This document shows positions 9,576 to 43,050 of a DNA stretch of 60,336 nt, piece after piece. Both the position numbers and the translations under genes were made by a program. The DNA comes from Luteitalea sp. GTDB lineage: Bacteria; Acidobacteriota; Vicinamibacteria; Vicinamibacterales; Vicinamibacteraceae. The notes under the pieces were generated by a model. It was not told the origin of the DNA. It was given only the letters and a program-made list of their open reading frames with translations, and searched no databases. Numbering within the stretch: position 1 is the stretch's first letter; every line of letters starts with the position of its first letter. The stretch covers positions 1 to 60,336 of the forward strand of contig WHTT01000038.1 in the NCBI GenBank assembly GCA_009377605.1, given 5' to 3'.

Positions 9576-10838
9576 ATGGTCATGCTCGCGGTATCCCTCC
9601 TCGCCAGCGCGCTCATGGCGCCCCAGGCCCAGCCCCCGGACGACGTGCCGCCGGACTGGCTGCTTCCGAACTTCGCCGAGCGCTTGGAGCTCGACGTGAT
9701 CAACCCGTCCTCGGCCTCCGTGCGCACGCTCGCCGCAGTGCCGGTCGCGCGGGCGTCCTCGGCCGCGCTGCGCTTTCCTGGCACGCTTGCGATCGTCGTG
9801 CGACCCGGTTCGCCGCCGGCGGTGCTCCCGTCCCAGATCGACGATCTGGACAGCGACGGCACGCCAGACGAGCTCGTGTTTCCGATCGAGCTGGACGCTC
9901 ACGCCTCGGCACCAGTCCATGTGTATTTCTCGCGCACGCTACGCGACACGCTTCCCTGGCCGAAGCGCGTGCACGCGAGCCACGCCTTCGGGTACAACCA
10001 CGCGACCGCGACGCTCGAGTCGGCGCTGATCGGGTATCGCACGTACGGCGGCTTCTTCCTCGATGTGCAGGCCCGGCACGAGGGGCAGCCGGGTCTGTTC
10101 AACGCGCTGGTGGGGTACCTGGGATCGCGTCATCCATCGCCGGCCGGACGCGACGTCATCCACCTGGGCGACACGCTCGGTCTTGGCGGGCTCTTCCTCC
10201 GCCACGGGCGCGAGGTCCAGCGGCCTCCGCTCAACGTTCCCGATTACGCGCACGCGCGTCCGCCACCCCACGTGCCGCGGTACCGCGTCGTCGCATCCGG
10301 CCCGCTGCGGGCGATCGTCGAGGCCCGCCTGGATCGGTGGCGGTTGAGCGAGGCCGAGCAGGTCGCCGTGCGCGCCACGTACACGATCACGGCCGGCGCA
10401 ACGCACGTCGAATGCCGGTTTCAAGTCGTGCCGCTGCAGATCGTCCGCCGCTACGAGGTCGGCGCCGGCGTGCGCCACCTCCCGGACATGACCGTGGACC
10501 ACGCGGCCGGACGTCTCGCGCTGCGCGGCACCGAATCGCCCGAGATTGGGGCGCTCGGCCTCGCGCTCTACTACGACACGTCCACGGCCGCAGCGGCGCC
10601 GCCGATCGCGACGAAGGACGGCGCGAACGAGGTCGTGCTGTTCCGCCGGCAGCTCGCGCCGGGACAGCTCGTCGAGGGCCAGTACTGGCTCGCCGCCGCC
10701 TGGAGCGGCACCGGTATTCGCGACCTGCTCTCGCACCTGACGCACGTGGAACAGCAGGCGCGCGCAGCCGTGCGGATCGAGCACCTGCGGCTCGCGCGAA
10801 CTCCGTGGCCGGAGCGCATCGAAGGCGAGGCGCACTGA
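9576..10838 (+). CDS. DUF4861 family exported protein
   Basis: The 420-residue protein starts at ATG 9576 (or 9582); the N-terminus MVMLAVSLLASALMAPQAQ is a signal peptide. The long frame upstream is only an antisense shadow of the TBDR. The body fits DUF4861, a family found next to polysaccharide lyases, with segments such as FGYNHATATLESALIGYRTYGGFFLDVQ and a core of the type GPLRAIVEARLDRW. A DxDxDG-like loop (DDLDSDGTPDELV) lies near residue 90. DUF4861 has no firmly established activity that I know of; genomic context elsewhere links it to uronate-containing glycans. It is the first gene of the operon, and its stop overlaps the next start (TGATG). Confidence 0.8.
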   Translation: MVMLAVSLLASALMAPQAQPPDDVPPDWLLPNFAERLELDVINPSSASVRTLAAVPVARASSAALRFPGTLAIVVRPGSPPAVLPSQIDDLDSDGTPDELVFPIELDAHASAPVHVYFSRTLRDTLPWPKRVHASHAFGYNHATATLESALIGYRTYGGFFLDVQARHEGQPGLFNALVGYLGSRHPSPAGRDVIHLGDTLGLGGLFLRHGREVQRPPLNVPDYAHARPPPHVPRYRVVASGPLRAIVEARLDRWRLSEAEQVAVRATYTITAGATHVECRFQVVPLQIVRRYEVGAGVRHLPDMTVDHAAGRLALRGTESPEIGALGLALYYDTSTAAAAPPIATKDGANEVVLFRRQLAPGQLVEGQYWLAAAWSGTGIRDLLSHLTHVEQQARAAVRIEHLRLARTPWPERIEGEAH

Positions 10839-11575
10839 TGCTGGTGGACTGTCACGTCCACATCGGCAAGTCCACCCGGCTGCAGATCGACGCCGACGGC
10901 GACCTGCTCGTGCGTCGCGCGGACGAGCTCGGCATCGACATGATCTGCTGCACCGACCTGACCGCGCTCTTCTACGACATGCACGAAGGCAATCGGCTGC
11001 TCTTCGAGGAGATGCGTCGCTTTCCCGATCGCATCCTCGGGTATGCGAGCCTGCACTCCACGCGGTTCGGCCGGGAGGCGCTCGACGAGCTGGAGCGCTG
11101 CCGCCACGACTACGGCATGCGCGGGCTCAAGATCTATTCGACGCCCGAGATGAGCATTGCCGAGCCGGCGATGATCCCCATCCTCGAGAAATGTGTCGAG
11201 CTGCAGTTTCCAGTCCTCGCGCACACGACACCGCCGGAGTGTGACTACCTGCTCGGGCACGTGCCGGAGTGTCGCCTCATCATGGCGCACGCCGGCGCGC
11301 AGCCCTTCGCGAAGGGCGACTGGAACCGGGCCATTCAAGCGGCCCAGCGGTTCGAGCACCTGTACCTGGACACCGCCAGCTCGACGATCGACACCGGGTT
11401 CCTCGAGACGTGTGTGGCGGCGCTCGGCGCGGACCGCATCCTCTTCGGCACCGACATGCCGCTGCTCGATCCCTGGCCGCAGCTCGAGAAGATCCGCGGC
11501 GCGCGCGTCTCCTCGTCACAGCTCGAGGCGATCCTCGGCGGCAACATCCTGCGCGTGATGGGAGTGCAGGCGTGA
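10838..11575 (+). CDS. Amidohydrolase family protein (metal-dependent, TIM barrel)
   Basis: The 245-residue protein has the full set of amidohydrolase-2 landmarks: D4-x-H6-x-H8 (VDCHVHIG), H129 in FPVLAHTT, H151 in LIMAHAGA and D206 in ILFGTDMP. It ends with the usual GGNILRVMG helix. Enzymes of this type hydrolyse lactones or decarboxylate acids; the L-rhamnono- and L-fucono-lactonases belong to the same superfamily. The ATG overlaps the DUF4861 stop, and its own stop overlaps the GTG of the next gene by four bases, so the two amidohydrolase-fold proteins are probably made in equal amounts. No signal peptide, so cytoplasmic. Lactonase is the favoured guess from context, not proven. Confidence 0.85.
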   Translation: MLVDCHVHIGKSTRLQIDADGDLLVRRADELGIDMICCTDLTALFYDMHEGNRLLFEEMRRFPDRILGYASLHSTRFGREALDELERCRHDYGMRGLKIYSTPEMSIAEPAMIPILEKCVELQFPVLAHTTPPECDYLLGHVPECRLIMAHAGAQPFAKGDWNRAIQAAQRFEHLYLDTASSTIDTGFLETCVAALGADRILFGTDMPLLDPWPQLEKIRGARVSSSQLEAILGGNILRVMGVQA

Positions 11576-12336
11576 TTCTCGACATCAACGCCTTCATCGG
11601 CAGATGGCCGTACTGGCCCATCCCCGCCTCCGCACCGCAAGAGGTCGCCGAGACGCTCGCCGCGGCTGGCATCGATCGGGCGGCCATCTGTTCCACGCGC
11701 AGCGTGTTCGTGCACTGGGAAGATGGCAACGGCGACGTGGAGCGCGCGTGCCGCGAGCACGACGGCCGGTTCGTGCCCTTCGCCTGCCTCGGCACGCTCG
11801 AGCTCAGCCACGCGCTCCCGCCGCGCGAGCTCGATCTCGAGGCGTACGCGCGACGCGGCTTTCGCGGCATCCGGCTGTATCCGCAGCACCACAGCTACCA
11901 TCCGCTGTACAACGCGTTCGTCGACCGCATCCTCGAGGACGCCGCCGCGCGGCGATGGCCCGTGCTGCTGCCGCTCCGGATCGTGATGAACTGGGGCGTG
12001 CCGATGCAGGAGCTGCCGGTCATCGAGGCGCTGGTGGCACGGCACCCACGTGTGGTCTGGCTGCTGGCCGGCATCAACTATCTGTGGGAGCTGCAGCTCG
12101 CGGTCTGGCTGATGGCGCGCTATCGGGACGTACATCTCGAAACATCGTGCGTGATGGGGTACGAGGCCATCACGACGCTCGTGGCGCAATGTGGGAGCGA
12201 CCGGATCCTGTTCGGCAGCGGCGCGCCGATCCAGCTCGCGGCCGCGGGCCTCGCGAAGATCCTGCGGGCGCGCATCAGCGACGCTGACCGGGACGCCGTG
12301 CTCGGCGGCAACGCGCGGCGACTGCTCGCCTTGTAG
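11572..12336 (+). CDS. Amidohydrolase-fold protein lacking metal ligands (probable pseudoenzyme)
   Basis: The 254-residue protein starts at GTG 11572, overlapping the previous stop as GTGA. It is a clear paralogue of its upstream neighbour: both have an ILFG strand and a C-terminal GGN helix (ILGGNILRVMG versus VLGGNARRLLAL). However, the metal and catalytic positions are replaced. The HxH motif is N6-A-F8, the barrel His pair becomes P134 and G167, and the final catalytic Asp (FGTDMP) becomes G217 in FGSGAP. It therefore probably cannot hydrolyse by the usual mechanism. It may be a regulatory or structural partner of the active paralogue, or have a metal-free activity. The reading frame is intact and well conserved in composition, so decay is unlikely. 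Confidence 0.8.
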   Translation: MILDINAFIGRWPYWPIPASAPQEVAETLAAAGIDRAAICSTRSVFVHWEDGNGDVERACREHDGRFVPFACLGTLELSHALPPRELDLEAYARRGFRGIRLYPQHHSYHPLYNAFVDRILEDAAARRWPVLLPLRIVMNWGVPMQELPVIEALVARHPRVVWLLAGINYLWELQLAVWLMARYRDVHLETSCVMGYEAITTLVAQCGSDRILFGSGAPIQLAAAGLAKILRARISDADRDAVLGGNARRLLAL

Positions 12337-12346
12337 TGGGGATCCG

Positions 12347-13231
12347 ATGCGCATCCTCCGATTCTTCGCTGACGACGATGCCGTGCACGTTGGCGTGCGT
12401 CGGGGCGCCACGGTGTTGGATCTCGGGCCGGCCCCCGGGCTCGATGCCGGCGCGGGCGGCGTGCGTGCGCCGCTCAGCGTGCCGCTGGCGCCGCCCATCG
12501 CGGAGCGGCCGTTGGCGACGCTGCGGCTCGACGCGCCCATCCGCGGCTCGCGCAAGCTGCTCGCGCTGGCCGGCAACTACCGCTCGCATGTCGTCGAGAG
12601 CGGCTTCACGCCGGTCGGGGAGCGCGAGACGGTGACGCCGCAGGTCTTCTGGAAACCGCCAACGGCCGTCAACCGTCCGGGCGGCGCCATCGCGCTGCGG
12701 CCGAACAACGTCTGCCTCGATTGGGAGATCGAGCTGGCCGTCGTGATTGGCCGGGCGGCGACGCGCGTGAGCACAGACGAGGCGATGGAGGCGGTCTTCG
12801 GCTACACGGCCATGAACGACATCAGCGAGCGCCGGTTCAACGCGCGCGTCGAGCCCCGGACCCTGCGCGAGCTCGATCCGTTCTTCGACTGGCTCATGGG
12901 AAAGTGGTTCGACGGCTCGGCGCCGCTCGGTCCCGAGATCGTGACGAAGGACGAGATCCCGGAGCCGCACGATCTTCGCCTCCGGCTGTGGGTGAACGAC
13001 GAGCTGATGCAGGACGGCCACACGTCCCAGATGATCTTTCGCATTCCAGAGACCATCGCGTACATCTCGTCGGTGGTGACGCTCGAGCCTGGCGACATCA
13101 TCGCGATGGGCACACCGGACGGCGTGGGCGCCGCGCGCGGGCTGTCGCTGAAGCCAGGCGATCGCGTGCGCGGCGAGATCGAGGGCATTGGCGTGCTCGA
13201 CACGCTGATCACCGCCGAGGCGCCGCGATGA
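12347..13231 (+). CDS. Fumarylacetoacetate hydrolase (FAH) family protein
   Basis: The 294-residue protein has the FAH fold. N-terminal residues 1-65 form the small domain. Then come LLALAGNYRSH (71-81), FWKPPTAV (101-108) and the metal site DWEIELAVVIGR with E127 and E129, and NDISER with D158. The C-terminal part has LEPGDIIAMGTPDGVG, the signature of the superfamily. FAH enzymes cleave C-C bonds of 2,4-diketo acids or act as decarboxylases or dehydratases; 2,4-diketo-3-deoxy-L-rhamnonate hydrolase is a member. The gene starts 10 bases after the pseudoenzyme gene with GGGGA as ribosome site. Its stop overlaps the next start (ATGA). A role in sugar-acid breakdown is inferred from the operon. 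Confidence 0.88.
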   Translation: MRILRFFADDDAVHVGVRRGATVLDLGPAPGLDAGAGGVRAPLSVPLAPPIAERPLATLRLDAPIRGSRKLLALAGNYRSHVVESGFTPVGERETVTPQVFWKPPTAVNRPGGAIALRPNNVCLDWEIELAVVIGRAATRVSTDEAMEAVFGYTAMNDISERRFNARVEPRTLRELDPFFDWLMGKWFDGSAPLGPEIVTKDEIPEPHDLRLRLWVNDELMQDGHTSQMIFRIPETIAYISSVVTLEPGDIIAMGTPDGVGAARGLSLKPGDRVRGEIEGIGVLDTLITAEAPR

Positions 13232-14268
13232 GAGCCGTCCGGATCGGCATCATCGGCGCCGGCTTCATGGGCCGGACGAATGCCGAGACGGTCACCCGCT
13301 ATCTGACGCGAGCCGCGCTCGTCGCGATCGCTGGCGGGTCGCGGGCGGCCGCGCTCGCGCAGGACTACGGCGCGGCGTCCGAATCGTCCGTCGAGGCACT
13401 GGTGGCACGGGACGACCTCGACGCCGTGCTGATCAGCACACCACCGTCCGAACATGCGGCGCACGCCATCGCCGCGGCCGCACACGGCAAGCACGTCCTG
13501 CTGGACAAGCCGATGGCGACCACGGTGGAGGAATGCAATCACATCCTGCACGCCACGCAGGAAGCGGGCGTCACGCTGATGATCATGTTCGGCCAGCGGT
13601 TCCGCACCTGCAACATGACCGCGCATCGCCTGATTCGCGAGGGGGCGATCGGCGAGGTGCGCATGGTCGAGGAGCGAATCCTCGCCACGGGCGGGATTGG
13701 ATCGCTGCCACCCTGGCAGAGCGAGCCGCAGAACGGCGGCACGTTCCTCGGTCACGCCGTCCACAACATCGACCGGATCCGGTGGCTGACCGGGGCGGAG
13801 GTGACGAGCGTCAGCGCGCAGGTCCAGCACGATCCCGCGCGCGGCGCCGAAGTGTCGACCATGGCGCTGCTCTCGTTGAGCAACGGCGGGATGGCGACCA
13901 TCTGGTCATCGTGGAACGTCGCCAAGCCACTGTTCCCGGGCAGCGCGTCCGGTGCGTGGATCGCGGGACGTACGGGCAATCTCGATCTCGATGCGTACGG
14001 CCAGCTACGTCTGGGCAGGGACGAGACGTGGACCGTCGTGGCCGAGCAGGAGCCCATCGACTGGAAGGGTGAAGGGATGCTGGCGCGCGTGCGGATGAAG
14101 GCGTATCAGCTGCAGCACCAGGAGTTCGTCGATAGCATCCTCGAGCGGCGCGTGCCGTCGGTCACGGGTGAAGACGGGCGGGCAGCGGTCGAAGTAGCGG
14201 AGGCGGCGTATCGTTCCGCGAGGCTCGGACGAACCGTGCACCTCGGTCGCGTGAAGGAGAATCAATGA
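13228..14268 (+). CDS. Gfo/Idh/MocA family oxidoreductase
   Basis: The 346-residue protein has an N-terminal Rossmann domain with IGIIGAGFMG (G10, G12, G15) for NAD(P), and the family motif DKPMA (K94, P95). The C-terminal alpha/beta domain has the substrate-side motif GHAVHNIDRIRWL with H179 and D182. These enzymes oxidise or reduce sugars, cyclitols or amino sugars. The start ATG overlaps the stop of the FAH gene by four bases, and the stop overlaps the DegT start in the same way, so translation is coupled across three genes. In this setting it probably oxidises the sugar released by the exported enzymes, or makes the keto substrate of the following DegT protein. Confidence 0.9.
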   Translation: MRAVRIGIIGAGFMGRTNAETVTRYLTRAALVAIAGGSRAAALAQDYGAASESSVEALVARDDLDAVLISTPPSEHAAHAIAAAAHGKHVLLDKPMATTVEECNHILHATQEAGVTLMIMFGQRFRTCNMTAHRLIREGAIGEVRMVEERILATGGIGSLPPWQSEPQNGGTFLGHAVHNIDRIRWLTGAEVTSVSAQVQHDPARGAEVSTMALLSLSNGGMATIWSSWNVAKPLFPGSASGAWIAGRTGNLDLDAYGQLRLGRDETWTVVAEQEPIDWKGEGMLARVRMKAYQLQHQEFVDSILERRVPSVTGEDGRAAVEVAEAAYRSARLGRTVHLGRVKENQ

Positions 14269-15524
14269 CGCACGCGCTCGCCATTGACGGCGGCCCGAAG
14301 GCCGTGGCCGAGAAGCTGCCCACGTTCCTCGACGCGGCCGGACGCACGTTTGGCACGGAGGAGGAGCGCCTCGTCATCGAGGTCCTGCGTTCGGGGTGTC
14401 TGAGCCGCAACGGCGGCGCCATGGTCGAGCGCCTCGAGCGCGACTTTGCCACCGCGCTCGGCGTGCCGCACGCGATCGCCTGTTCCACCGGCACGGCGGC
14501 CGTGCACCTGGCGCTCGCCGCGCTGGATCTCGAGCCGGGTGACGAGGTCATCGTGCCACCCATCACCGACATCGGCTCGATCCTGCCCGTGCTCTGGCAG
14601 AACGCCGTGCCGGTGTTCGCCGATGTGGATCCGGTGACGCTGTGCCTCGACCCGGAGGATCTGGCCTCGCGGATCTCGCCGCGCACCCGCGCGGTCATTG
14701 CCGTGCACCTCGCGGGACAGCCATGCGATATGCCGGCGCTGACGGCGCTTTGCCGCCGGCACGGGTTCGTGCTGATCGAGGACTGCTCGCAGGCGTACTG
14801 GGCTGAATGCCACGGGCAGATCGTGGGCACGATGGGCGATCTGGCCTGTTTCAGCTTGCAGCAGAGCAAGCACATGACCTGCGGCGAAGGGGGGCTCCTC
14901 GCAACCCCCAATCACGCGTACGCTGCGCGCGCGCGGCTCTTCGCGGACAAGGCCTGGCCCCGCGATCTCACGTCGCTCGGATCGATGCGATTCCTCTTCC
15001 TGGCGCAGAACTACAGGATGAGCGAGCTGCAGGGGGCCGTGGCGCTCGCGCAACTCGGGAAGCTGCAGGCCACGCTCGCGTGCCGGCGGAGGCAGGCTGC
15101 CGCGCTCACGGCGCTGCTCGAGGACGTGCCCGAAGTGCAGTGTCCGCGGGCGGCCGCGGGCACGACACATTCGTTCTGGCTGTACATGCTGCGCGTGAAC
15201 GAGGAACGGTGCGGCGCCCGCACGGCGGACTTCGGGACAGCGCTGCTGGCGGAGGGCGTTCCGTCGTGGGTACAATACATCGTCGATCCGTTGTATCTGT
15301 CGCCGCTCTTCACGGAACGACACACATACGGAGCGTCGGAGTATCCGTTCCGGCCATTCGGGCGGCAGGTCTACGACAGCGGCCTCTGCCCGCGTGCAGA
15401 ACACGGACTCCGCAACGTCATTGCCCTATGGTGGAACGAGGCGTACACCGACGAGCACGTGAGGCAGATCGCGTCGGCGATCCGCAAGGTCGCCCGGCAC
15501 TTCTCCCGCGCGATGGCCCGCTAG
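14265..15524 (+). CDS. DegT/DnrJ/EryC1/StrS aminotransferase family protein
   Basis: The 419-residue PLP-dependent enzyme of fold type I keeps the key residues: D173 in LIEDCSQAY binds the pyridine nitrogen and K202 in LQQSKHMTCGEGG forms the Schiff base. VIVPPITDIGS (95-105) and FADVDPVTLCLD (118-129) are typical for the family. Family members aminate keto-sugars or, in a few cases, dehydrate them. Pairing with a Gfo/Idh oxidoreductase is classical for oxidation then amination of a sugar. In an otherwise catabolic operon this is unexpected, so it may run the reverse reaction or act as a lyase. The start overlaps the previous stop (ATGA). Two further paralogues occur in the window (56394 and 59333). 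Confidence 0.9.
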   Translation: MTHALAIDGGPKAVAEKLPTFLDAAGRTFGTEEERLVIEVLRSGCLSRNGGAMVERLERDFATALGVPHAIACSTGTAAVHLALAALDLEPGDEVIVPPITDIGSILPVLWQNAVPVFADVDPVTLCLDPEDLASRISPRTRAVIAVHLAGQPCDMPALTALCRRHGFVLIEDCSQAYWAECHGQIVGTMGDLACFSLQQSKHMTCGEGGLLATPNHAYAARARLFADKAWPRDLTSLGSMRFLFLAQNYRMSELQGAVALAQLGKLQATLACRRRQAAALTALLEDVPEVQCPRAAAGTTHSFWLYMLRVNEERCGARTADFGTALLAEGVPSWVQYIVDPLYLSPLFTERHTYGASEYPFRPFGRQVYDSGLCPRAEHGLRNVIALWWNEAYTDEHVRQIASAIRKVARHFSRAMAR

Positions 15525-16318
15525 CCACGCGGCCAACGTCGAAATCGGACATCTATTACATCGAGGTGCTGGGCAAAGCGCTCGACATCCTCGACGTGTT
15601 CGTCCAGGCGCAGAAGCCGCGTCTGACGCTGCAGGAGATCTCGACGCTCAGCCGACTGAACAAGAACACGGTGTTCCGTGTGCTCTATACGCTCGTCGAG
15701 CACGACTACGTGGTCAAGCGGCAGCACGAGTACGAGCTGGGCCCCAAGGTGCTGGACTTGAGCGAGTCGAAGCTGGGACGACGGGATCTGCTGAGCGCCG
15801 CCGGGCCGTCGCTCGACGCGCTGCGTCGGCAGTTCCAGGAGACGGTCAACCTCGGCGTGCTGGAGGGAGGCCAGATCCGGTACGTCGACGTGCGCGAGAG
15901 CCCTCATCGTTTTCGCCTCGCCGAGCGGGTGGGCGGCAGCGACTTCCTGCACTGCACAGCGCTGGGCAAGTGTCATCTGGCGTTCCTCCCGTTCGACCAA
16001 GCGCGGCAACTGCTGAAGGCACAAGGCATGCCGCGGCAAACCACGCGCACCATTGTTACGTTGACCGCCCTGAAGGCGGAGCTCGACGGCGTCCGCCGGC
16101 AGGGCTATGCGGTCGACGCTCAGGAGAGCATGGAGGGAGCGTTCTGCCTGGGCGTGCCGATCCTCGACGATCACGACGCCCCAATCGCCGCAGTCAGCAT
16201 CTCAGGGCCCATCACGCGCTTCAACGAATCCGTCGTGCCTGCGGCGAGCGACGCCCTACGCCGCGCCGCCGGAGAGATTCGCGCCAAGCTCGGATACGGG
16301 CGAGGCCCCCGGGCCTGA
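15428..16318 (+). CDS. IclR family transcriptional regulator (start uncertain)
   Basis: The recognisable protein begins with SDIYYIEVLGKALDILDVF (from about 15545). It has an N-terminal winged helix (LTLQEISTLSRLNKNTVFRVLYTLVEHDYV) and a GAF-like IclR effector domain ending in VSISGPITRF and the usual C-terminal helix. In this frame the nearest upstream ATG is 15428, inside the DegT gene; there is no ATG, GTG or TTG between GTG 15431 and GTG 15566, the latter being too far inside. Either translation starts within the DegT gene, adding about 38 residues, or a non-standard start near 15527-15536 is used. IclR proteins bind small aromatic or sugar acids. It is the likely local regulator of the operon, though its binding site is not proven. 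Confidence 0.85.
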   Translation: MVERGVHRRAREADRVGDPQGRPALLPRDGPLATRPTSKSDIYYIEVLGKALDILDVFVQAQKPRLTLQEISTLSRLNKNTVFRVLYTLVEHDYVVKRQHEYELGPKVLDLSESKLGRRDLLSAAGPSLDALRRQFQETVNLGVLEGGQIRYVDVRESPHRFRLAERVGGSDFLHCTALGKCHLAFLPFDQARQLLKAQGMPRQTTRTIVTLTALKAELDGVRRQGYAVDAQESMEGAFCLGVPILDDHDAPIAAVSISGPITRFNESVVPAASDALRRAAGEIRAKLGYGRGPRA

Positions 16319-16389
16319 TCCCGCCGGCCGCGCGCCTCACGTCCGCACAGCGCATCCAGGCGCATCGCCGTGGCCCCTGCGTATCGCAC

Positions 16390-16431
16390 GAGATCGAATC
16401 TCGTTGCGGAATAATCAAACGCGGTTATACT
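16390..16431 (+). promoter_or_regulatory. Promoter with operator palindrome, leaderless gene
   Basis: TATACT at 16426-16431 is a strong -10 box, with TTGCGG at 16404-16409 as a weak -35 (16-base spacer). The -10 ends only ten bases before the ATG at 16442 and no Shine-Dalgarno is present, so the transcript is probably leaderless. A perfect palindrome GAGAT-CGA-ATCTC (16390-16402) abuts the -35 and GGTTA/TAACC arms (16423-16441) flank the -10, both candidate operator sites. Confidence 0.5.
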
Positions 16432-16441
16432 CTGCGTAACC

Positions 16442-17587
16442 ATGTTCGCGGTCGATGAGCTCGCGCGCCGCACCGGCCCCATCCGGCTCGCGCGCCTCGA
16501 AGCGTCGCGTGTCGAGATCGCCATGCACGAGCCCTTCCGGATCAGCTCCGGGACGGTGGCCTCGAAGGAGGCGGTCATCGTGTGCATACGCGACGGCGAG
16601 TCGCTCGGCTGGGGAGAATCGTCGGCGATGCCGGGCGGGTTCTACTCGTCGGAGACGCCCGACGGCTGCTGGCACGAGCTGACGGCCACGCTGCTGCCGG
16701 CGCTCGCTGGACGGACGTTCACCGATCTCGCCGCGCTCGATGGCTTCCTCCGGGAGCGCGCGACGACCCCATTCGTGCGTGTCGCCGTCGAGACCGCGGC
16801 ATGGGAGCTAGCGGCGCGTGCCCGCGGGCAGTCGCTGCGTGCTCTGTTCGGCCTGCCGGACCGTGCCGTGCCCTCTGGCCTCGCGGTCGGGCTCTACGAC
16901 GATCTGAGCGGGCTGCGCGCCGCGCTCGAGCGGTACCGGCCGCGCGACTACCTGCGGCTGAAGATCAAGATCACGCGCGGCGACGACATCGCGCTCGCCC
17001 AGGCCGTGCAGGACTGGTGGCCCGGCATGCCCCTGTCCGTCGACGCAAACGGGGATTACGCACGCGACGACTTCCCCGTCTTCGAGGCACTCGATCGCTC
17101 GGGCCTGGTGATGTTCGAGCAACCCTTCGGCAAGCGCGACCTCGAGACGTCCGCGGCGCTCCAGCGCATCGTGCGCACACCGATCTGTCTCGATGAAAGC
17201 GTGGACAGTGTCGAAGCGGCCGCGCGCGCGATCGCTCTGCGCAGCTGCCGGATCGTCAATGTCAAGCTGCAGCGCGTGGGCGGCTTTCTCGACGCGCTGC
17301 GGATCATGGAGGCATGCGCCGAGAGCGGCGTTCCCGTCTGGATGGGCACCATGCCGGAGCTGGGCGTCGGCGCCGCCCAGGCGCTGGTCCTGGCATCTCA
17401 TCCGGCATGCCGCTTTCCAACCGACGTCGAGCCGAGCGCGCGCTGGTACGTGGATGACCTCCTCGCGCCAGCGCTCCAGCTCGAACGCGGCTATCTGCAT
17501 GTGCCGTCGGGGCCGGGCCTCGGCTTCACCGTGGACGAGCGGTCGCTGGAGCGCCACACGCTGGATCGGCGAATCTTCGTGGAGTGA
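16442..17587 (+). CDS. Enolase-superfamily enzyme (muconate lactonizing / MenC-like)
   Basis: The 381-residue protein has the N-terminal capping domain (about 15-130) and the barrel of the enolase superfamily. Catalytic lysines K174 and K176 lie in LRLKIKI; metal ligands are D201 (SVDANGDY), E226 (MFEQP) and D251 (ICLDES); the opposite catalytic lysine is K275 in VNVKLQRVGG. The two-lysine arrangement is that of the muconate-lactonizing/o-succinylbenzoate synthase subgroup, which includes racemases and epimerases, rather than the His-Asp acid-sugar dehydratases. It could therefore epimerise or cycloisomerise a sugar-acid or dipeptide-like substrate. It is transcribed from its own promoter and is followed after six bases by the symporter gene. 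Confidence 0.88.
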   Translation: MFAVDELARRTGPIRLARLEASRVEIAMHEPFRISSGTVASKEAVIVCIRDGESLGWGESSAMPGGFYSSETPDGCWHELTATLLPALAGRTFTDLAALDGFLRERATTPFVRVAVETAAWELAARARGQSLRALFGLPDRAVPSGLAVGLYDDLSGLRAALERYRPRDYLRLKIKITRGDDIALAQAVQDWWPGMPLSVDANGDYARDDFPVFEALDRSGLVMFEQPFGKRDLETSAALQRIVRTPICLDESVDSVEAAARAIALRSCRIVNVKLQRVGGFLDALRIMEACAESGVPVWMGTMPELGVGAAQALVLASHPACRFPTDVEPSARWYVDDLLAPALQLERGYLHVPSGPGLGFTVDERSLERHTLDRRIFVE

Positions 17588-17593
17588 GGGGCG

Positions 17594-19336
17594 ATGACGC
17601 GCGCGCAGCTCTCGATGCCGGATTATGTGGTCATTGCGGGATACTTCGTCATTGTCCTGTGGATCGGGTTCTACTTCCGGTCGCGGCTCGACGCGCCGAA
17701 AGACTACTTCGCCGGCGGCCATCGTGTGCCGTGGTGGCTGGCGGGTATCTCGCACTACATGTCGAGCTTCAGCGCGTTCTCGTTCGTCGCGTACGCGCAG
17801 ATGGGCTACATGTACGGCTGGGTGTCGGTAACGCTGTTCTGGGCGACGATTCCCGGCTGCCTCGCAGGAGCGCTGTTCTTCGCGCGACGGTGGCGCCGCG
17901 CGCGGATCATCACCCCGATCCAGTTCCTCGAGGCCCGGTTCAACAGCTTCGTGCGGCAGCTGTTCGCGTGGTCGGGAATTCCGATGAAGGTGCTCGACGA
18001 TGCGCTGAAGGTGTTCGCGACGGGGCTGTTCGTGTCGGCGTCGACGGGTGTCGATCTGGAATGGATGATCGCCGTCTGCGGCCTCGTCATGGTGGCGTAC
18101 ACGTTCCTCGGTGGGCTCTGGGCGCTCGTGGTGACGGATTACGTGCAGTTTCTGATGAAGACGCTCGCGATCCTGCTGCTGCTCCCGCTGGCGATCGTGC
18201 AGGCGGGAGGCGCCGCGCGTGCGTTCGCAGGCCTTCCGCAGGGGTTCTTCGCGCCGACAGGCGGCCCCTACGGGATGATCTACATCGCGGGCTTCGTCGT
18301 GCTCATGACGATCAGCTACAACGCGAGCTGGTCGCTCGCGCAGAAGTACTATTCGGTGCGGGACGAAACGGAGGCAGCCAAGGCCGCGTATTGCGCCGCG
18401 GCGCTGAACTTCGTGGGTGCCCCGCTGATGATCCTGCCCGCGCTCGTCGGACGCCACCTCTTGCCCGACCTACTCGCCGAGCAGCGGACGGCCGACGTCT
18501 ACATCCTGCTCGTGCTCACCTTGCTGCCGGTTGGCATGGTCGGCATCATCGTGGCGGCGATGTTCTCGGCCACCATGGCCGTCGTCAGCGCGGACTTCAA
18601 TGCGATTGCCAGCGTCCTCACGAAGGACGTCTATCAGCGGCTGCTTCGGCCCGGCGCGTCCGACCGGCAGCTCCTGCAGGTCGGACGCTGGGCGACGCTC
18701 GCGCTGGGCCTGGTCACGATCGGGCTTGCGCTGTGGATTGCCGCGCTCGGCCAGCAGGCGCTCTTCAACACGATGGTGACGCTTCTGGGACTGTTCATGG
18801 CGCCGACGTTCCTGCCGCTGCTGGCGGGTTTGGCATCGCGTCGCTTGACCGCGCACGGCGCCCTCCTCGGTTTTTGCCTGGGGTTGATCACGGGGTTCGT
18901 GATGTTGGCGGCCAAGACCTGGTGGCTGCCGTCCCTGCCGGGTGGGGCGTCGCTGACCACGACGTACGCATTCGAAGGGCTCTCGCTGCTGGTGAATGCC
19001 GCGGTGACGGTGATCGGACTCGTAATCGGCACGATGCTCGGACCGCGCGACAACGCGGAGAGCGAGCGGGCGGCTGCGTTCTTCGACGCGCTGGATCGTC
19101 CGATCGCGGCGCACGAAGTGCCCGGAGCGACCAGCAACACGGCGATGCCCATTCTCGGGCGGTCGACCATGGCCGTCGGGATGCTGCTCGTGCTCGCGGG
19201 GCTGCTCGCGCGATCGCAGGCGGCACGCCTGAGCGACCTCGCGATCGGCGTGCTGCTGGTGGCGTTCGGCGCCATGCTGCACAGACGCGGCCGCCGTACC
19301 GCCACACCCGCAGCCGCCCTCGTCTCCGGATCCTGA
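17594..19336 (+). CDS. Sodium:solute symporter family protein
   Basis: The 580-residue inner-membrane protein has about 13-14 hydrophobic helices and the features of the SSS family: DYFAGGHRVPWWLAGISHYMSSFSAFSFV near the N-terminus and IIVAAMFSATMAVVSADFNAIASVLTKDVY in the middle. SSS proteins couple Na+ entry to uptake of sugars, uronates, sialic acid or other small organic molecules. It starts six bases after the enolase-superfamily gene (GGGGC before ATG), so the two are co-transcribed. As the last gene of the block it most likely takes up the monomer or disaccharide processed by the upstream enzymes. The stop is followed by a strong hairpin at 19415-19444. Confidence 0.92.
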   Translation: MTRAQLSMPDYVVIAGYFVIVLWIGFYFRSRLDAPKDYFAGGHRVPWWLAGISHYMSSFSAFSFVAYAQMGYMYGWVSVTLFWATIPGCLAGALFFARRWRRARIITPIQFLEARFNSFVRQLFAWSGIPMKVLDDALKVFATGLFVSASTGVDLEWMIAVCGLVMVAYTFLGGLWALVVTDYVQFLMKTLAILLLLPLAIVQAGGAARAFAGLPQGFFAPTGGPYGMIYIAGFVVLMTISYNASWSLAQKYYSVRDETEAAKAAYCAAALNFVGAPLMILPALVGRHLLPDLLAEQRTADVYILLVLTLLPVGMVGIIVAAMFSATMAVVSADFNAIASVLTKDVYQRLLRPGASDRQLLQVGRWATLALGLVTIGLALWIAALGQQALFNTMVTLLGLFMAPTFLPLLAGLASRRLTAHGALLGFCLGLITGFVMLAAKTWWLPSLPGGASLTTTYAFEGLSLLVNAAVTVIGLVIGTMLGPRDNAESERAAAFFDALDRPIAAHEVPGATSNTAMPILGRSTMAVGMLLVLAGLLARSQAARLSDLAIGVLLVAFGAMLHRRGRRTATPAAALVSGS

Positions 19337-19665: not shown

Positions 19666-21642
19666 CTACTCGAGACGGATCCACTTGGTGGCAGCACGGT
19701 CCGCGGGACCCGCTAGGAGCAATGTCTCACCTTCCATCCTGGTGACCGGCGGCGTCCACCCCGCAACCCCGCCGCGCCAAAAGATCCACCAGCGGACGCC
19801 GCTCCCCTCGGGCAGGCGAGCCCTGGGCGTCAGCGTCAGCGGTCCGCGGCTGCCGGCGTGACGGACCAATTGAGATGCCTCTAGGCCGCCTGGCGACGTG
19901 CCTACCCAGAGCGCATGCTCGCCGTCGCTCAATCGAGCCCAACCGCCGACGAACGCCCACGCGAGATACGCGCCGCCCGTCCAACTCGTGCCGACTTCGG
20001 CATCCTTCTTCAGTGAGCGGAAGGTGTCGCGCACAACCATCGCCGGCGCCTCGCCGCTCATGAGCCACACGTCGCGCCGAACGACAGCGCCTGCGGGCAA
20101 GCCCTCATAACAGGCGCTCAAGTCAATGCCCACATGCTGCCACCCACGCCTGTCCGTTTCCAAGACACGCAGTCGGGCGGCGCGCGGCTTCTGCGCCTCG
20201 CCGTCGATCACGGGGCTGTTGTGCGCCCAGATTCCCAAGGTGTAGTCCCGTTCCGCGCCCGGCCGATATTGCTGATAGCCAGGATCGGTAATCCAGAAGC
20301 GATTCTGCCAGCCGAGGATGACATGGCCGCCATCGGCGTGCAGATGGCGCATCGCGTTGCGTGTCAGACTCACGGACGCGGCAGCGTCGCCACTGGCCCA
20401 ACCGGTTCGAAGCGTGACGGCGTGCGGGTGCTCATGCGGGGCAGCGACCGGCCGCCGCGAGGCGGACGCTTGCTCGAAAAAGCGGAAGTCGCCGCGCGCC
20501 GCGACGAGCGCGGCCGCAGGCAGCCGCACGGCGGGCACATGCGCGAGAAGCCAGGCCGCATCGCGCCACTCATACCAGCGCGCGAGCCGCAGCAGCGCGC
20601 TGCTCCAAAACGGCATCTCGGGCTCGACATCGCCCAGCGGTGCATGGAGGTCGGGCCGGCCCGGCAGCGTGAGATCAATCCACTCGTCCGCGACGCTGCG
20701 GAACGCATCGCGATGCTTCTCCAATATGTCGCGGACGCCCGGCAGTCCCGCCAGCCACTCGGTCACGCTGTCCATCAAATACCCGTCATAGCTCGTGCCT
20801 TCGGTGTGATATTCCTTGCCCGTGCGAAACCGGCCCCAGGCGGTGAGCACTTCGGTCATTTTCCCTTCCAAGGCATTGGTCCGCGCGCTGCCGATGATGC
20901 GCGCGAGCTGAGCGCTGCGCGCGAGCGTGATGACCGGAATATTGTGCAGGCGCGCGGGAGCATCCACCTTCGCGCTCCACTGCTCCTCGAACCAGGGCCA
21001 GACGTCGCGCTCGATCAACGCCTCGGCCGCGGCGCGGGCCTCTCGCAGGAGGGCGGGGTCCCAGCGGCTCGAGTCCGCCAGCGCGAGTGACAGGCTCGCT
21101 GCCAGGTGAGCGGTCACGAGCCCCGCCTGATTGGTCATCTCGTAAAATCGATCCCATCCCGCCAGCGCGGCGAGCTCGTGCTGGAGGAGGCGCCCTGCCT
21201 CGAGGTCGTTGTTCCCGCGCCATGCCGCGTGCAGAATGCGCCAGCGCTCCTCGAGATCCCACGCCAACCAGGTCAACCACGGATACGTAATCGTGCTGAT
21301 GCCGGCGGGCAGCTCCTCCGGCGTCGGACGCGTTGCCACCGGCAGCGGAAAGGCAAGCGTATGACCGATCCGGTAGTAATAAACGTTCAACTCGCGGCGC
21401 TGTTTTTCCCGTGCCGTGCGCTCAGCGAGCACGCGTTGCAGATCAGTGCGAGTCCACGGCCGGTCGTCTTGCGGGATGAAGGGGTCGAGCTCGTAGGCCG
21501 ACGTCTCATACGCGAGCGGGGGCCGCTGTGGCTCAGCGGCGCCTCGAGTGGACGTGCCCTGTGCGGCAAGCGCCGCACCGCACGCGAGCACGCCGAAGGC
21601 AGCAAGCGCGCGCAAGCGGCCGACGGAGGATCCCATGAGCAT
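19666..21642 (-). CDS. Heparinase II/III family protein (exported polysaccharide lyase-like)
   Basis: The 658-residue protein has a signal peptide (SSVGRLRALAAFGVLACGAALAAQG), then an alpha/alpha-toroid (about 60-390) and a C-terminal beta-sandwich. The helical domain holds EGTSYDGYLMDS (281-292), matching the family Tyr motif. The heparinase II/III core motif is HLHADGGH (433-440) followed by FWITDPGYQQY (449-459), with the His and Asp that bind metal and act in catalysis. Family members cleave uronate-containing glycans (heparin, alginate, ulvan-like) by beta-elimination. No operon partner follows on the minus strand; it converges on the symporter gene. ATG at 21636 is an alternative start; no clear ribosome site. 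Substrate not deducible. Confidence 0.85.
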   Translation of the reverse strand: MLMGSSVGRLRALAAFGVLACGAALAAQGTSTRGAAEPQRPPLAYETSAYELDPFIPQDDRPWTRTDLQRVLAERTAREKQRRELNVYYYRIGHTLAFPLPVATRPTPEELPAGISTITYPWLTWLAWDLEERWRILHAAWRGNNDLEAGRLLQHELAALAGWDRFYEMTNQAGLVTAHLAASLSLALADSSRWDPALLREARAAAEALIERDVWPWFEEQWSAKVDAPARLHNIPVITLARSAQLARIIGSARTNALEGKMTEVLTAWGRFRTGKEYHTEGTSYDGYLMDSVTEWLAGLPGVRDILEKHRDAFRSVADEWIDLTLPGRPDLHAPLGDVEPEMPFWSSALLRLARWYEWRDAAWLLAHVPAVRLPAAALVAARGDFRFFEQASASRRPVAAPHEHPHAVTLRTGWASGDAAASVSLTRNAMRHLHADGGHVILGWQNRFWITDPGYQQYRPGAERDYTLGIWAHNSPVIDGEAQKPRAARLRVLETDRRGWQHVGIDLSACYEGLPAGAVVRRDVWLMSGEAPAMVVRDTFRSLKKDAEVGTSWTGGAYLAWAFVGGWARLSDGEHALWVGTSPGGLEASQLVRHAGSRGPLTLTPRARLPEGSGVRWWIFWRGGVAGWTPPVTRMEGETLLLAGPADRAATKWIRLE

Positions 21643-24080: not shown

Positions 24081-27000
24081 TCAGTACTGCAGACGCACGC
24101 CGAAACGGAAGTTGCGCTCTCCCACACCCCTGGTTGAACGAATAAAGCCGAACGTCCCCGCATCGGACACGTTGCCGCCGGGATTGGCGAAGTTGGGATG
24201 GTTCAGCACGTTCAAAGCCTCCGCGCGGAGCTGCATCTGGATACCGAAGGGCAGGGAGATCGTCCGGAACAGGCCGAGATCCAGGTTGAAGAATCCCGGC
24301 CCGCGAATCGTGTTTCTGCCCACGTCGCCGAAGCGCGCTTCGTCGACGGGGGCGAACGCCGACGTGTCGAAGTACTGGAACTGCGCGGGGTCGGCGCCAG
24401 GCGGCGGCACGCCCTTCTGGTTGTTGTCGAAGATCTCGACCTCCGGCTTGACCTGGTCGGGGACCTGTCCGCTGCCGCCCGCGAGGAGCTGCGGCGCCGT
24501 GCCTTGCACGATAGAGAACGGGGTCCCGCTCATCGCAGTCAGCACGCCGTTGAGCTGCCACCCGCCGAGCAGCACGCTCCCGAGTCCCTCTTGCAACCAC
24601 GCCTGACCGCGCCCGAACGGAGCGTCCAACACCCAGTGGACCTGTAGGTTGTGCGTTCGGTCGAACGACGCGCGGCCTCTATTACGGTCAATCTCGCCCG
24701 GCGCTTGGATGCGCGCACCGCCAGCATTTTCTCCATCGCTTAGCAAGTTGATGGCTTTCGACCACGTATAGGACACGCCCACCAGCGAGCCCCCCTTCCG
24801 GTACGTGAGCTGCGACTGCAGGGCGTCGTAGAACGCGTCTGCGAACGGTTGAATGGAGACGATGTCATCCACAATGCCAAACTGCGCCAGCGGCCGTCCC
24901 TGATCGCCTGCGCCCGGCGGCGCGGCGTTCAGGTTGATGCGGCCCATCTGCCCCGTGATGCGCGTGCCGACATAGCCGACCTGTGCCGTCAGCGATCGCG
25001 TCACCTCATGCTGGATGGTGACGTTGAACGAGTGGGTGTGCTCGCGCTCGACCTCTTGCGGCCACGTGAGCGTCCCCACACCAGTCGGCAGCGGGATCAC
25101 CCCGGAGCCGATATCAGGTGGTTGGCCAAAGCGCTCGACGTCGAGCCCGTCCCTGAGCGTGGTCACCGGGATGAACTCATTGTCGACGCCGTTCAATTGG
25201 ATGGTGGGGTGTTCGAACGACAGCACCGCAGGAAACGCGTCGCGAAAGTCTTTGAACGAGGTGCCGTCGGCCGACAGGCCGTAGCCCGCGCGGACGACGG
25301 TCTTCTCGCTGGCGCGATACGCCACACCCACGCGCGGCAGGAGCTTGCCGGTCCCCACATCCGCACCCGTGTCCTTCGGCACATCGCCGAGACCGCCGAT
25401 GAGGACGTTGCCCGTCGCGGGGTCGAAGCGTGACACGCCGATGTCGTTGTCGCGGCTGGGCCAGAGATACTGTTCCCATCGCAGACCATAGGTCAGGGTG
25501 AGATTGCGCGCCACTTGCCACTGGTCCTGCGCGTAGAGCGCGTGCACCTGCATGTAGACCGCGCTCGGATTCGACAGCTGGTCGGTCTTGCCGGCGCGCA
25601 TGGGCAAGCCGAGCAGGAAGTCGGCCCAACTGTTGAACCGATCGGCCGCAGCGCCCCCCTGCCGCGCCGTGGCGTTGCCGTTGAAGCCGAAGGTGCCACG
25701 GGGTGACAGGCCTCGCGCCTGGGGCTGAAAGTGATTGAGTTGCTGATTCTGATAGTCCCATCCCATGCGGAAGGCGTGCGCGCCCGTCAACCAACTCAGG
25801 TTGGCCGTCGCCACGTACTGGTTATCGCGAAACAGAAACGGGTTGCTCGGATTTGGGTTCCCGAGACTGGCCCAGTTGTTGATGCGGAACGCCGGCATGC
25901 CACCCTGCAGCCGGTCCGGACCATTCGTGCCGGGAATGCCGAAGACATCCAATCCGAAGTTGGTGTCGATGTCCACGTTCTCGGCGCCCAGTCGCTGGCG
26001 CGTGTATCCCACGTTGCCGTCGAACACGAGCGTCGGACCGAAGGTATAGGTGCCGCCAACGCCCGCGACTTGAGTGCGGGCAGGCGAGAGGCCCTGTTGG
26101 CCACCGGCAAGCGCGTCGCCGCCCGCCTCGCCCAGGGCCGGCGGATCGAAGACCTCGCTCGGCGACAGGCTGTAGCGCCCCCACAGGGTGGACCTGTCGC
26201 TGGCGTTGAGGCTCACCTTGAAATCGAGGTTGTCGCGGTCGAACGTGTTCGTGCCGCTTGCTTGAAAGTTGTCGACGAGGCCGGGCCCCGTGGGATCCGG
26301 CATGCGCGCGATGAGCTCTCGCGCGGCCAGGTCGATTCTGTCGCGCGGAACCTGGTTGTTTGGAAACGGCGCGCGCTGACGCGGGTCGGGGCCGGAGGCG
26401 GGGTCGTAGATGACGGTGTCGACCCCACTGAAGTCGCCGTTGCGGAGCGCCTCGGTCGGCAGGCTCGAGAGCCGGACCGGCGAGGCCTGCCGCCGCGTCG
26501 TCGTCTCCCAATTGCCGAAGAAGAACAGCTTGTTCTTCAGAATCGGGCCGCCCAGATTCGCGCCGAACTGGTTGAGGAGATCCTTGGGGACGTCTGGCGT
26601 CGTGAGAAAGACGTTGCGCGCTTTGGTCGCGCTGTTCGTGTGGTTCCACCAGCCGGTGGCGGCGTACGCGTTCGTGCCCGACTTGATGCTCACGTTGATG
26701 GCGGCGCCGCCTGCGATCCCCTGCTCGGCGCCGAAGGCATTGGTCACGATGTTGACCGATTCGATGGCCTCCGCCGACGGCACGTAGGCCGTGTTAGTGG
26801 GGAGCCATGGGTACTGGATGCTGGCGCCATCGATCTTCGTGTTGTTCTGCACCCTCGAGACGCCGTTGACGTTGAACGAGATGGAGCGTTGCGGGCTGCC
26901 CGCGACGGAGTTGATCTCGCCGACCAAGGTGACGCCCGGCACGAGGCCCATCAGGCCCTGGTAATTCCGGCCCATGCTGCCTTGGAGCGGCAGGTTGTTC

Positions 27001-27470
27001 ACCTGCCTGGCCGTTTGCACCACGTTGACGTCGGCACGATCGGTCTGGAGCGTCACGTTGGTGCCTGAGACTTCGACCGTTTCGGCCACCTCGGCGACCT
27101 CCAGCGTGACATCGACGCGCTGGACGCGGTTGGTCTCGATGCGCACGTCCTCCTGCACAACGGTGGTGAAGCCCTGCAGGGAGACGGTCACCCGGTAGGC
27201 ACCCGGCAGCAAGTCACCAAAGAAGTACCCACCGCGCTGATCCGTGGTGACCCGCTTCGCCACGCCCGTGCCGACGTTCAACGCCTCGACATCGGCGCCC
27301 GGCACCGCCTGGTCAGTGGCATCCGTGACCGTGCCAGTGAGCGAGCCGTAAAGCACTTGCGTCGACGCGGGCAGGACCGCGACCGCCAACACAAATGGCA
27401 CCAGCAACAGCGGAAGGCCACCAGCGCGATGCGTGCGTACGGGCGCAAGGAAAAGCGACAGCCATTTCAC
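24081..27470 (-). CDS. TonB-dependent receptor, Oar-like (TBDR 2)
   Basis: The protein has 1129 residues. The start GTG 27470 (VKWLSLFLAPV) was chosen because it follows GGAGG at six bases; the ATG at 27548 lies before that ribosome site. After a signal peptide with a long n-region come a carboxypeptidase-regulatory-like domain (GSLTGTVTDATDQAVPGADVEAL), a plug with LPLQGSMGRNYQGLMGLVPGV and AINVSIKSGTNAYAATGWW, and a barrel ending FRFGVRLQY with a terminal aromatic residue. The plug motif differs from that of TBDR 1 (LPLQGSMGRNY instead of [11 protein letters not shown]), so it belongs to another receptor subgroup. It has no enzyme gene directly downstream. Confidence 0.93.
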   Translation of the reverse strand: MKWLSLFLAPVRTHRAGGLPLLLVPFVLAVAVLPASTQVLYGSLTGTVTDATDQAVPGADVEALNVGTGVAKRVTTDQRGGYFFGDLLPGAYRVTVSLQGFTTVVQEDVRIETNRVQRVDVTLEVAEVAETVEVSGTNVTLQTDRADVNVVQTARQVNNLPLQGSMGRNYQGLMGLVPGVTLVGEINSVAGSPQRSISFNVNGVSRVQNNTKIDGASIQYPWLPTNTAYVPSAEAIESVNIVTNAFGAEQGIAGGAAINVSIKSGTNAYAATGWWNHTNSATKARNVFLTTPDVPKDLLNQFGANLGGPILKNKLFFFGNWETTTRRQASPVRLSSLPTEALRNGDFSGVDTVIYDPASGPDPRQRAPFPNNQVPRDRIDLAARELIARMPDPTGPGLVDNFQASGTNTFDRDNLDFKVSLNASDRSTLWGRYSLSPSEVFDPPALGEAGGDALAGGQQGLSPARTQVAGVGGTYTFGPTLVFDGNVGYTRQRLGAENVDIDTNFGLDVFGIPGTNGPDRLQGGMPAFRINNWASLGNPNPSNPFLFRDNQYVATANLSWLTGAHAFRMGWDYQNQQLNHFQPQARGLSPRGTFGFNGNATARQGGAAADRFNSWADFLLGLPMRAGKTDQLSNPSAVYMQVHALYAQDQWQVARNLTLTYGLRWEQYLWPSRDNDIGVSRFDPATGNVLIGGLGDVPKDTGADVGTGKLLPRVGVAYRASEKTVVRAGYGLSADGTSFKDFRDAFPAVLSFEHPTIQLNGVDNEFIPVTTLRDGLDVERFGQPPDIGSGVIPLPTGVGTLTWPQEVEREHTHSFNVTIQHEVTRSLTAQVGYVGTRITGQMGRINLNAAPPGAGDQGRPLAQFGIVDDIVSIQPFADAFYDALQSQLTYRKGGSLVGVSYTWSKAINLLSDGENAGGARIQAPGEIDRNRGRASFDRTHNLQVHWVLDAPFGRGQAWLQEGLGSVLLGGWQLNGVLTAMSGTPFSIVQGTAPQLLAGGSGQVPDQVKPEVEIFDNNQKGVPPPGADPAQFQYFDTSAFAPVDEARFGDVGRNTIRGPGFFNLDLGLFRTISLPFGIQMQLRAEALNVLNHPNFANPGGNVSDAGTFGFIRSTRGVGERNFRFGVRLQY

Positions 27471-27475
27471 AATAC

Positions 27476-27495
27476 ACCTCCGAGCTCCGGAGCTC
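27476..27495 (-). promoter_or_regulatory. Palindrome abutting the TBDR 2 ribosome site
   Basis: GAGCTCCGGAGCTC (27482-27495) is a perfect 14-base palindrome directly upstream of the GGAGGTG ribosome site. It could be an operator or a structure that modulates translation. No promoter boxes are obvious. Confidence 0.35.
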
Positions 27496-27698
27496 ATTAG
27501 TTGTCGTCGCGAACTATTCATTCTATCAGGTGTCATTCGCGTCAACAACGTTGCTCAGTGTGGTCACGACCCTCATTTCCGTGAAGCACCCCCTGTCCAT
27601 ACGCGCCTTGACAGCGTCGCCCGAGACTCGTAAAATACTGCACTTCAGCTCAGATATGGATGGGCGCGGGTTTGCAGACCCGTTGGGAGGAACTGGGT

Positions 27699-36270: not shown

Positions 36271-36330
36271 CCGCGAATGATTATGGGCGTCGAAGCGAAC
36301 GGACGGATGAGGAGCTCGAGAGGCATGCCA

Positions 36331-43003: not shown

Positions 43004-43050
43004 ATCTCCGCGTGCACTACGTGAGCATCACGAATCTGCAGGAGGGCATT

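Follow-up and report, generated by a model that had tools for sequence, protein, structure and literature searches.

The Amidohydro_2 family (PF04909) has been described as a largely uncharacterised superfamily of more than 100,000 unique proteins (PMC10811679). The closest case to the gene pair analyzed here, among the published accounts consulted, is AibH1H2 of Rhodococcus wratislaviensis, a 2-aminoisobutyrate hydroxylase in which two superfamily paralogues make up a heterotetramer (PMC7782822), so two paralogues of this superfamily can form a heteromer. They are encoded by neighbouring genes and are 28% identical, AibH2 being catalytic and AibH1 non-catalytic in the opinion of the authors; the AibH2 gene adjoins a Rieske-type ferredoxin gene, and AibH1 holds a metal with D24, H26, H201, E255, and D328 (PMC7782822, PMC10401708), while the oxygenase ligands of AibH2 are D25, H27, H211, E265, D337, and H340 (PMC10401708). 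In a contig of Luteitalea sp. (Acidobacteriota; assembly GCA_009377605.1, WHTT01000038.1, positions 1 to 60,336 of the forward strand; this whole stretch of 60,336 nucleotides is called the window), two overlapping Amidohydro_2 genes, A and B, were compared with such systems. Judging from genomic data, they probably encode one undescribed two-part enzyme. The two genes and their diagnostic positions are:

10838..11575, + strand: gene A, Amidohydro_2 protein with the full mononuclear ligand set (ATG start, 245 amino acids; PF04909, 101 bits)
11572..12336, + strand: gene B, metal-ligand-free paralogue (GTG start, 254 amino acids; PF04909, 79 bits)
11572..11575, + strand: GTGA, start codon of B over stop codon of A (read from the sequence; orthologues overlap too)
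10853-10855, 10859-10861, 11222-11224, 11288-11290, 11453-11455, + strand: ligand codons of A (H6, H8, H129, H151, and D206, respectively)
11587-11589, 11593-11595, 11971-11973, 12070-12072, 12220-12222, + strand: codons of B at the ligand columns (N6, F8, P134, G167, and G217, respectively)
11872-11874, + strand: R101, the strand-4 arginine of B

Mononuclear metal-dependent amidohydrolases share the ligand set HxH, H, H, D. Both proteins score above the curated Pfam cut-off for Amidohydro_2 (26.4 bits) and are thus paralogues, as the original prediction had it. In A the ligand set is complete (HHHHD), while B keeps none of the five residues (NFPGG), with H6 replaced by N6, H8 by F8, H129 by P134, H151 by G167, and D206 by G217. 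The change of HxH to NAF, of both later His to Pro and Gly, and of the catalytic Asp to Gly had been predicted exactly, and so had the intact frame of B and its four-base overlap with A, which suggests that the two genes are translationally coupled. No NCBIfam model matched A or B at an E-value of 0.001.

Like AibH1 and AibH2, A and B are two adjacent amidohydrolase paralogues, and they are predicted to form a complex, the fusions described below being indirect evidence. They differ in their probable chemistry, in that A has HxH, H, H, D instead of the AibH2-type D, H, H, E, D, H, and in that AibH1 still binds metal whereas every superfamily ligand is missing from the window B. A dinuclear oxygenase of the AibH2/PtmU3/SfbO kind was considered for A and rejected, as A carries H in place of both the first D and the E, and the third residue after its Asp is not His (TDMPLL). 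No Rieske ferredoxin gene was found among the annotated genes at 9576-19336, the annotation farther out being incomplete, and AibH1H2 was not among the sequence matches of the A and B clade profiles described below, which carries no evidential weight by itself. Elsewhere, PF04909 proteins with D, H, H, E, D and a His three residues after the Asp, similar to AibH2/PtmU3, were seen at loci L055 (G184:C231, two genes) and L086 (G184:C196); the tandem pair of L055, with its oxygenase ligands, is a candidate AibH1H2-like hydroxylase in an acidobacterium.

LigI (2-pyrone-4,6-dicarboxylate lactonase, COG3618), which was compared in fold only (4d8l, Z 19.4 against a model of B), keeps the superfamily His/Asp residues and is one protein instead of a pair. 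The Amidohydro_2 (de)carboxylases resemble B in fold as well (2dvu, Z 19.8; 2hbx, Z 18.7), but ACMSD, gamma-resorcylate decarboxylase, and 5-carboxyvanillate decarboxylase are known as homomers whose chains each bind a metal, whereas one half of the A/B pair is without ligands. According to the title of structure entry 4ifk, catalysis requires Arg239 from a neighbouring subunit, so there is a precedent for a partner subunit that completes an active site. In the aspartate transcarbamoylase of Pseudomonas aeruginosa an inactive dihydroorotase homologue is needed for the activity of its partner (PMC7053772), although that partner is a transcarbamoylase and not a paralogue. No description of the A/B pair was found in the open-access literature searched. 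We rate the pair as belonging to a known kind, i.e., heteromers with a non-catalytic or repurposed paralogue, and as unusual in how deep its clade is, in occurring in haloarchaea as well as bacteria, and in its fusions in both orders.

Genome contigs were scanned with B, which gave five loci, all in records titled Acidobacteria or lower groups thereof. Four of these are full A-B pairs (L013-L016), which together with the window belong to what is called type 1 below, and the fifth (L017) holds part of B. Identity to the window copy is 81, 69, 74, and 72% for A and 68, 59, 59, and 59% for B (L013-L016, in this order). At the five ligand columns the B proteins read NFPGG, NFPGG, NFSGA, and HYPGG, the first His of L016 being the sole ligand retained, while all four A partners are HHHHD. 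As none of these four additional full-length orthologues has a usable set, the loss in B is not due to chance. A and B overlap by 4 bp (ATGA or GTGA) at four of the five full type-1 loci, window included; the junction of L015 is TGATG, with the same 4-bp overlap if an upstream GTG is taken as start.

Three more distant pairs of a canonical and a metal-less protein are present in the source genome and in a genome of the same genus, and the family was widened with a type-1 B profile run over 396 Acidobacteriota genomes and with a plasmid search using B. Ten plasmid records matched: five with haloarchaeal fusions, three with two-gene pairs (Klebsiella, Nonomuraea with two pairs, and Subdoligranulum), and two (L042, L043) with canonical singles that are not B. 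Broad profiles of 16 rows each were then built for B (alignment A5) and A (alignment A4), with thresholds of at least 155 bits for a B-clade place and at least 215 bits for an A-clade place; the best six candidates per genome were scored in most of the 396 genomes, the counts of places being therefore lower bounds. The B profile found at least 18 places in at least 11 genomes and, where a contig ends, one further incomplete copy. Among the matches listed, all 18 B-clade places adjoin an HHHHD protein and all 18 A-clade places adjoin a B. The next eight matches of the A profile score at most 178 bits; two of them are the pair of L023, and the other six, two of which lie near contig ends, have no B neighbour. 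Aligning homologues of B had been proposed as a check on the ligand loss, and the outcome was loss throughout, with at most one of the five ligands retained in any B-clade protein. A single-sequence search with B had matched 2 of the 162 genomes of the order, and the clade profile at least 11 of the 396 genomes of the phylum; the family is thus patchy yet taxonomically broad, and may have spread by horizontal transfer.

As a control for pairing, a PF04909 search covered 40 Acidobacteriota genomes and gave matches in 28; all places were taken with their flanks except two weak ones in G180 and another in G164, yielding 101 domains, with seven loci lacking a domain that covers half the model. A neighbour was defined as a PF04909 gene within 900 bp on the same strand. 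Domains lacking H6, H129, H151, and D206 adjoin an HHHHD protein in 4/4 cases, compared with 9/90 of the other domains (the four A partners excluded) having any PF04909 neighbour, none of these neighbours being ligand-free, so a chance neighbourhood of A and B was rejected. Three proteins with H151 only (MYQHN twice, WQQHN once) have no PF04909 neighbour (0/3), meaning that pairing is predicted by membership in the B clade and not by ligand loss alone. These unpaired proteins (L087, L097, and L061, with H151 alone kept) represent a further reduced-ligand lineage, and L061 and L097 group with haloarchaeal singles that adjoin a cupin gene (L221, L222). Another protein with a reduced set (L159 of G403, NSHHD) is also unpaired and groups with another single in the tree.

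Co-divergence was examined in a careful maximum-likelihood tree of 87 domains (27 A, 27 B, and 33 single PF04909 proteins), for which 16 near-copies and 17 singles were removed from, and 16 rows added to, a quick tree of 104 rows; the ligand columns were retained in the alignment. One clade (support 99/94) holds 25 of the 27 metal-less proteins. Their A partners form two groups, one of types 1 and 2 together (15 rows, 93/93) and one of type 3 (10 rows, 88/98), with the same membership as in B, and a single clade of all 25 A is not rejected when enforced (P value of the approximately unbiased test, p-AU, 0.459). None of the 33 single proteins lies inside the A or B groups. In both trees type 1 consists of the window, L013-L016, and L022, type 2 of L018, L021, L024, L025, L157, and the haloarchaeal A-B fusions, and type 3 of L020, L026, L027, L029, L044 (twice), L045, L095, L156, and the B-A fusion. 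For the 25 core pairs, the A and B trees share 14 of 22 splits (shuffled pairs: mean 0.15, at most 3), and pairwise distances are correlated with r = 0.908 (shuffled maximum 0.343). Linked genes that are inherited together also yield mirrored trees, hence this shows a lasting partnership and not contact. In the quick tree 28 of 31 metal-less proteins grouped together, as did 28 of 31 partners; the long-branched L044_B1 was outside B there and inside it in the careful tree, and L023_B fell within the A group.

Fusions tie the two halves further. In five haloarchaeal plasmid records, proteins of 558-567 amino acids join a canonical N-terminal to a metal-less C-terminal domain (A-B), and the plasmid of Halomontanus rarus carries elsewhere a second A-B protein (562 amino acids) directly beside a B-A protein of 541 amino acids, whose halves match type-3 B and type-3 A, in a cluster that also contains IclR, DegT, and MR/MLE genes; the total is six A-B proteins in five records and one B-A protein. 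Among the two-gene pairs, A precedes B in types 1 and 2 and follows it in type 3, so each fusion follows the gene order of its own type, and the linkage has outlived a rearrangement. In the annotated plasmid records consulted, the fused proteins and the Klebsiella pair are named as amidohydrolase only. With adjacency among the matches listed, mirrored trees, and both fusion orders, the genomic evidence for a lasting partnership is strong, and the predicted alternatives of a heteromeric partner or a metal-free activity gain support when taken jointly.

B is under purifying selection: in two sets of four genomes with close type-3 copies, the ratio of nonsynonymous to synonymous substitution rates (dN/dS) is 0.085-0.196 for B, in line with the predicted selection on this gene, and 0.044-0.212 for A, the type-1 estimates being less certain because dS is near saturation. 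At one place (L202:8940-10037 and beyond, G208:C97) B is split over two reading frames, through an assembly error or a real frameshift. Of the 254 positions of B, 92 do not vary among the five type-1 proteins, so B does have the conserved residues whose absence would have spoken against the prediction. Barrel faces were assigned by hand from DSSP of the B model, with the last strand placed by alignment; invariance is concentrated on the C-terminal (active-site) face (29/48 vs. 63/206 elsewhere, Fisher p = 0.0002), compared with 11/44 on the opposite face. With near-copies included and the pairs L039 and L023 excluded, the strand-4 residue is Arg in 29/29 B and Lys in 28/29 A (one Gly), while it is mixed in the other 100 domains (43 Lys, 16 Arg, 6 gaps). 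Across types 1 to 3 (16 B sequences), invariance is limited to D4, N53, R101, and G215.

An AlphaFold2 model of B (5 rows) reached a mean predicted local distance difference test score (pLDDT) of 74.4 and a predicted template modelling score (pTM) of 0.81; the barrel is predicted complete, with residues 1-17, 106-109, and 137-144 below a pLDDT of 50. Its closest solved folds are Amidohydro_2 and related barrels, namely 3cjp (Z 21.8, root-mean-square deviation (rmsd) 3.0, 229 residues aligned), 3irs (Z 20.7, rmsd 3.1, 241), 4dlf (Z 20.1, rmsd 2.7, 229), and 2dvu (rmsd 3.0, 242). In sequence, the top matches of the clade profiles to solved chains are distant (3s4t with 92 bits for A, 3irs with 59 bits for B).

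Our preferred reading, held with moderate confidence, is that A and B form an obligate heteromeric enzyme of Amidohydro_2 fold with A as catalytic and B as metal-free partner subunit. A would hold the single metal site and catalyse the reaction; a small carboxylated intermediate of a catabolic cluster is probably hydrolysed, hydrated, or decarboxylated. B, a barrel without metal, would pair with A and make it more stable, or alternatively lend residues, including the clade-wide strand-4 Arg, to a shared or neighbouring pocket. The partnership may be old, and a route from homomer to heteromer, in which one half loses its metal site and its pocket face stays conserved, is plausible given that a neighbouring subunit completes the active site in a relative (title of 4ifk). 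If one PF04909 clade exists solely as metal-free partners of another, annotation would be corrected, A expressed alone may be inactive, and the family would serve as an experiment of nature in which an obligate heteromer with one half dead or repurposed may have arisen from a homomeric metalloenzyme; the single-chain haloarchaeal versions make the pair model directly testable.

Several points weigh against this reading. Two enzymes that act in consecutive steps would also account for the adjacency, the mirrored trees, and the fusions; the strong conservation of the C-terminal face of B hints at a separate pocket there, although a contact face is just as conceivable; the pLDDT of the B model indicates middling confidence; and two pairs of a metal-poor and a canonical protein lie outside the clades. 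One of these (L023 of G284) has a half-way protein, NHHHE, beside HHHHD; in the other (L039, with B as NTTGD) A groups with its own B (98/89), which looks like a separate duplication. L039:2807-7777, on a Klebsiella pneumoniae plasmid (CP067510.1), contains an amidohydrolase, mannose-type phosphotransferase system genes, the second amidohydrolase (NTTGD), an ADP-ribosylglycohydrolase, and then a GntR regulator, apparently an independent origin of a canonical/metal-less pair.

The alternative that survives best, possible in our view and clearly the less probable one, is that B is a second, metal-free catalytic subunit that uses a separate Arg/His/Asn/Glu/Cys pocket and may hand an intermediate to A or receive one from it. 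In addition to the enrichment of invariance on the C-terminal face, R101, Q105, H106, H107, R136, N140, W141, N169, Y170, E190, S192, C193, and S216 are invariant in the five type-1 orthologues, fusion and co-inheritance fit consecutive steps too, and some PF04909 enzymes work without cofactor, LigI being the cited example (PMC10811679). The four residues invariant over 16 sequences provide no common catalytic set, which argues against it. The label of ligand-less pseudoenzyme in the original prediction holds for the ligands, a pseudoenzyme being only putative, as the pocket face is the most conserved part of B. Tentatively, the family may have two active sites, each heteromer or haloarchaeal single chain coupling a metal-dependent barrel to a metal-free one with its own chemistry around the strand-4 Arg, and be old, present in bacteria and archaea, of at least three types, and used in different pathways.

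That A and B are independent enzymes which merely share a pathway and an operon appears unlikely: each gene belongs to the cluster, and enzymes that act one after the other are often found together and sometimes become fused, but these two are paralogues, adjacent in all 18 matches listed, mutually exclusive in the tree, and fused in both orders, and they persist together while neighbouring genes change. A metal site rebuilt in B from other residues, e.g., in type 1 from the His-rich segment that follows strand 4 together with H188/E190/C193, is very improbable; H106, H107, H110, H188, E190, and C193 are invariant in the five type-1 orthologues and are not retained as a set in the 16-sequence clade alignment. 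Decay of a duplicate towards a pseudogene, which the loss of every metal ligand in the window B and the split copy of G208:C97 might have hinted at, is ruled out by dN/dS in the close sets and by the depth of the one clade, and the frame of B is open in the remaining full-length copies listed.

The genes around the pair in the window are:

9576..10838, + strand: DUF4861 protein upstream of A (PF16153, 92.3 bits)
12347..13231, + strand: fumarylacetoacetate hydrolase (FAH)-family enzyme, next after B (PF01557, 214.6 bits)
13228..14268, + strand: Gfo/Idh/MocA oxidoreductase (PF01408, PF22725, PF02894; overlaps the FAH gene by ATGA; start taken from the sequence)
14265..15524, + strand: DegT/DnrJ/EryC1/StrS pyridoxal phosphate (PLP)-enzyme family protein (PF01041, 299.4 bits)
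15524..16318, + strand: IclR-family regulator (PF01614, PF09339; start codon provisional)
16442..17587, + strand: enolase-superfamily (MR/MLE) protein (PF13378, 139.6 bits; TIGR01928, 228.7 bits, cut-off 200.65)
17594..19336, + strand: sodium:solute symporter (SSS; PF00474, 124.9 bits)

The last base of the DUF4861 stop codon is also the first base of the A start codon (TGATG), and a DUF4861 homologue is present at all five full-length type-1 loci. The top NCBIfam model of the MR/MLE protein is o-succinylbenzoate synthase (TIGR01928). The order DUF4861-A-B-FAH-Gfo/Idh-DegT-IclR-MR/MLE-symporter is common to the window and L013. L015 keeps the window order from A through MR/MLE, with the symporter and DUF4861 genes on the opposite strand; L014 has DUF4861 through DegT, with no IclR homologue in the remaining ~1 kb of the contig; in L017 the partial B is followed by FAH, DegT, IclR, and MR/MLE, without a Gfo/Idh gene; and in L016 the homologues located were DUF4861, A, and B only. 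DegT homologues also occur near type-2 and type-3 pairs (L021, L044, L048, L213, L214, L217, and L219). The neighbours thus vary, DegT, FAH, and Gfo/Idh homologues being found at some places only, while A and B remain together. By its gene content (DUF4861, FAH, Gfo/Idh, DegT, enolase superfamily, and Na+ symporter) the cluster looks like one for uptake and oxidation of a sugar-acid-like compound.

Around the cluster in the window lie a heparinase II/III-like gene, a sulfatase gene, and two outer-membrane beta-barrel (PF25183) genes, surroundings pointing to a putative use of sulfated or uronic glycans:

19666-21642, - strand: heparinase II/III-like gene
36277-37761, + strand: sulfatase gene
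24081-27548, - strand: PF25183 gene
43000-46491, + strand: PF25183 gene

Directly 3' of type-3 A, distant relatives (28-29% identical) of the window DUF4861 protein were seen at L205:7211-8572 and L206:10435-11790, which ties the DUF4861 family to the A/B pair outside type 1. By eye, twin-arginine-like N-terminal signals were noted in the type-2 B of G000:C17 (L018:5208-6089) and, in G161:C33 (L021:8453-10667), in the type-2 A as well as the DegT protein next to it, suggesting that some type-2 pairs may be exported. The source genome additionally contains a tandem of two long PF04909 proteins that are both HHHHD (L019, G000:C151).

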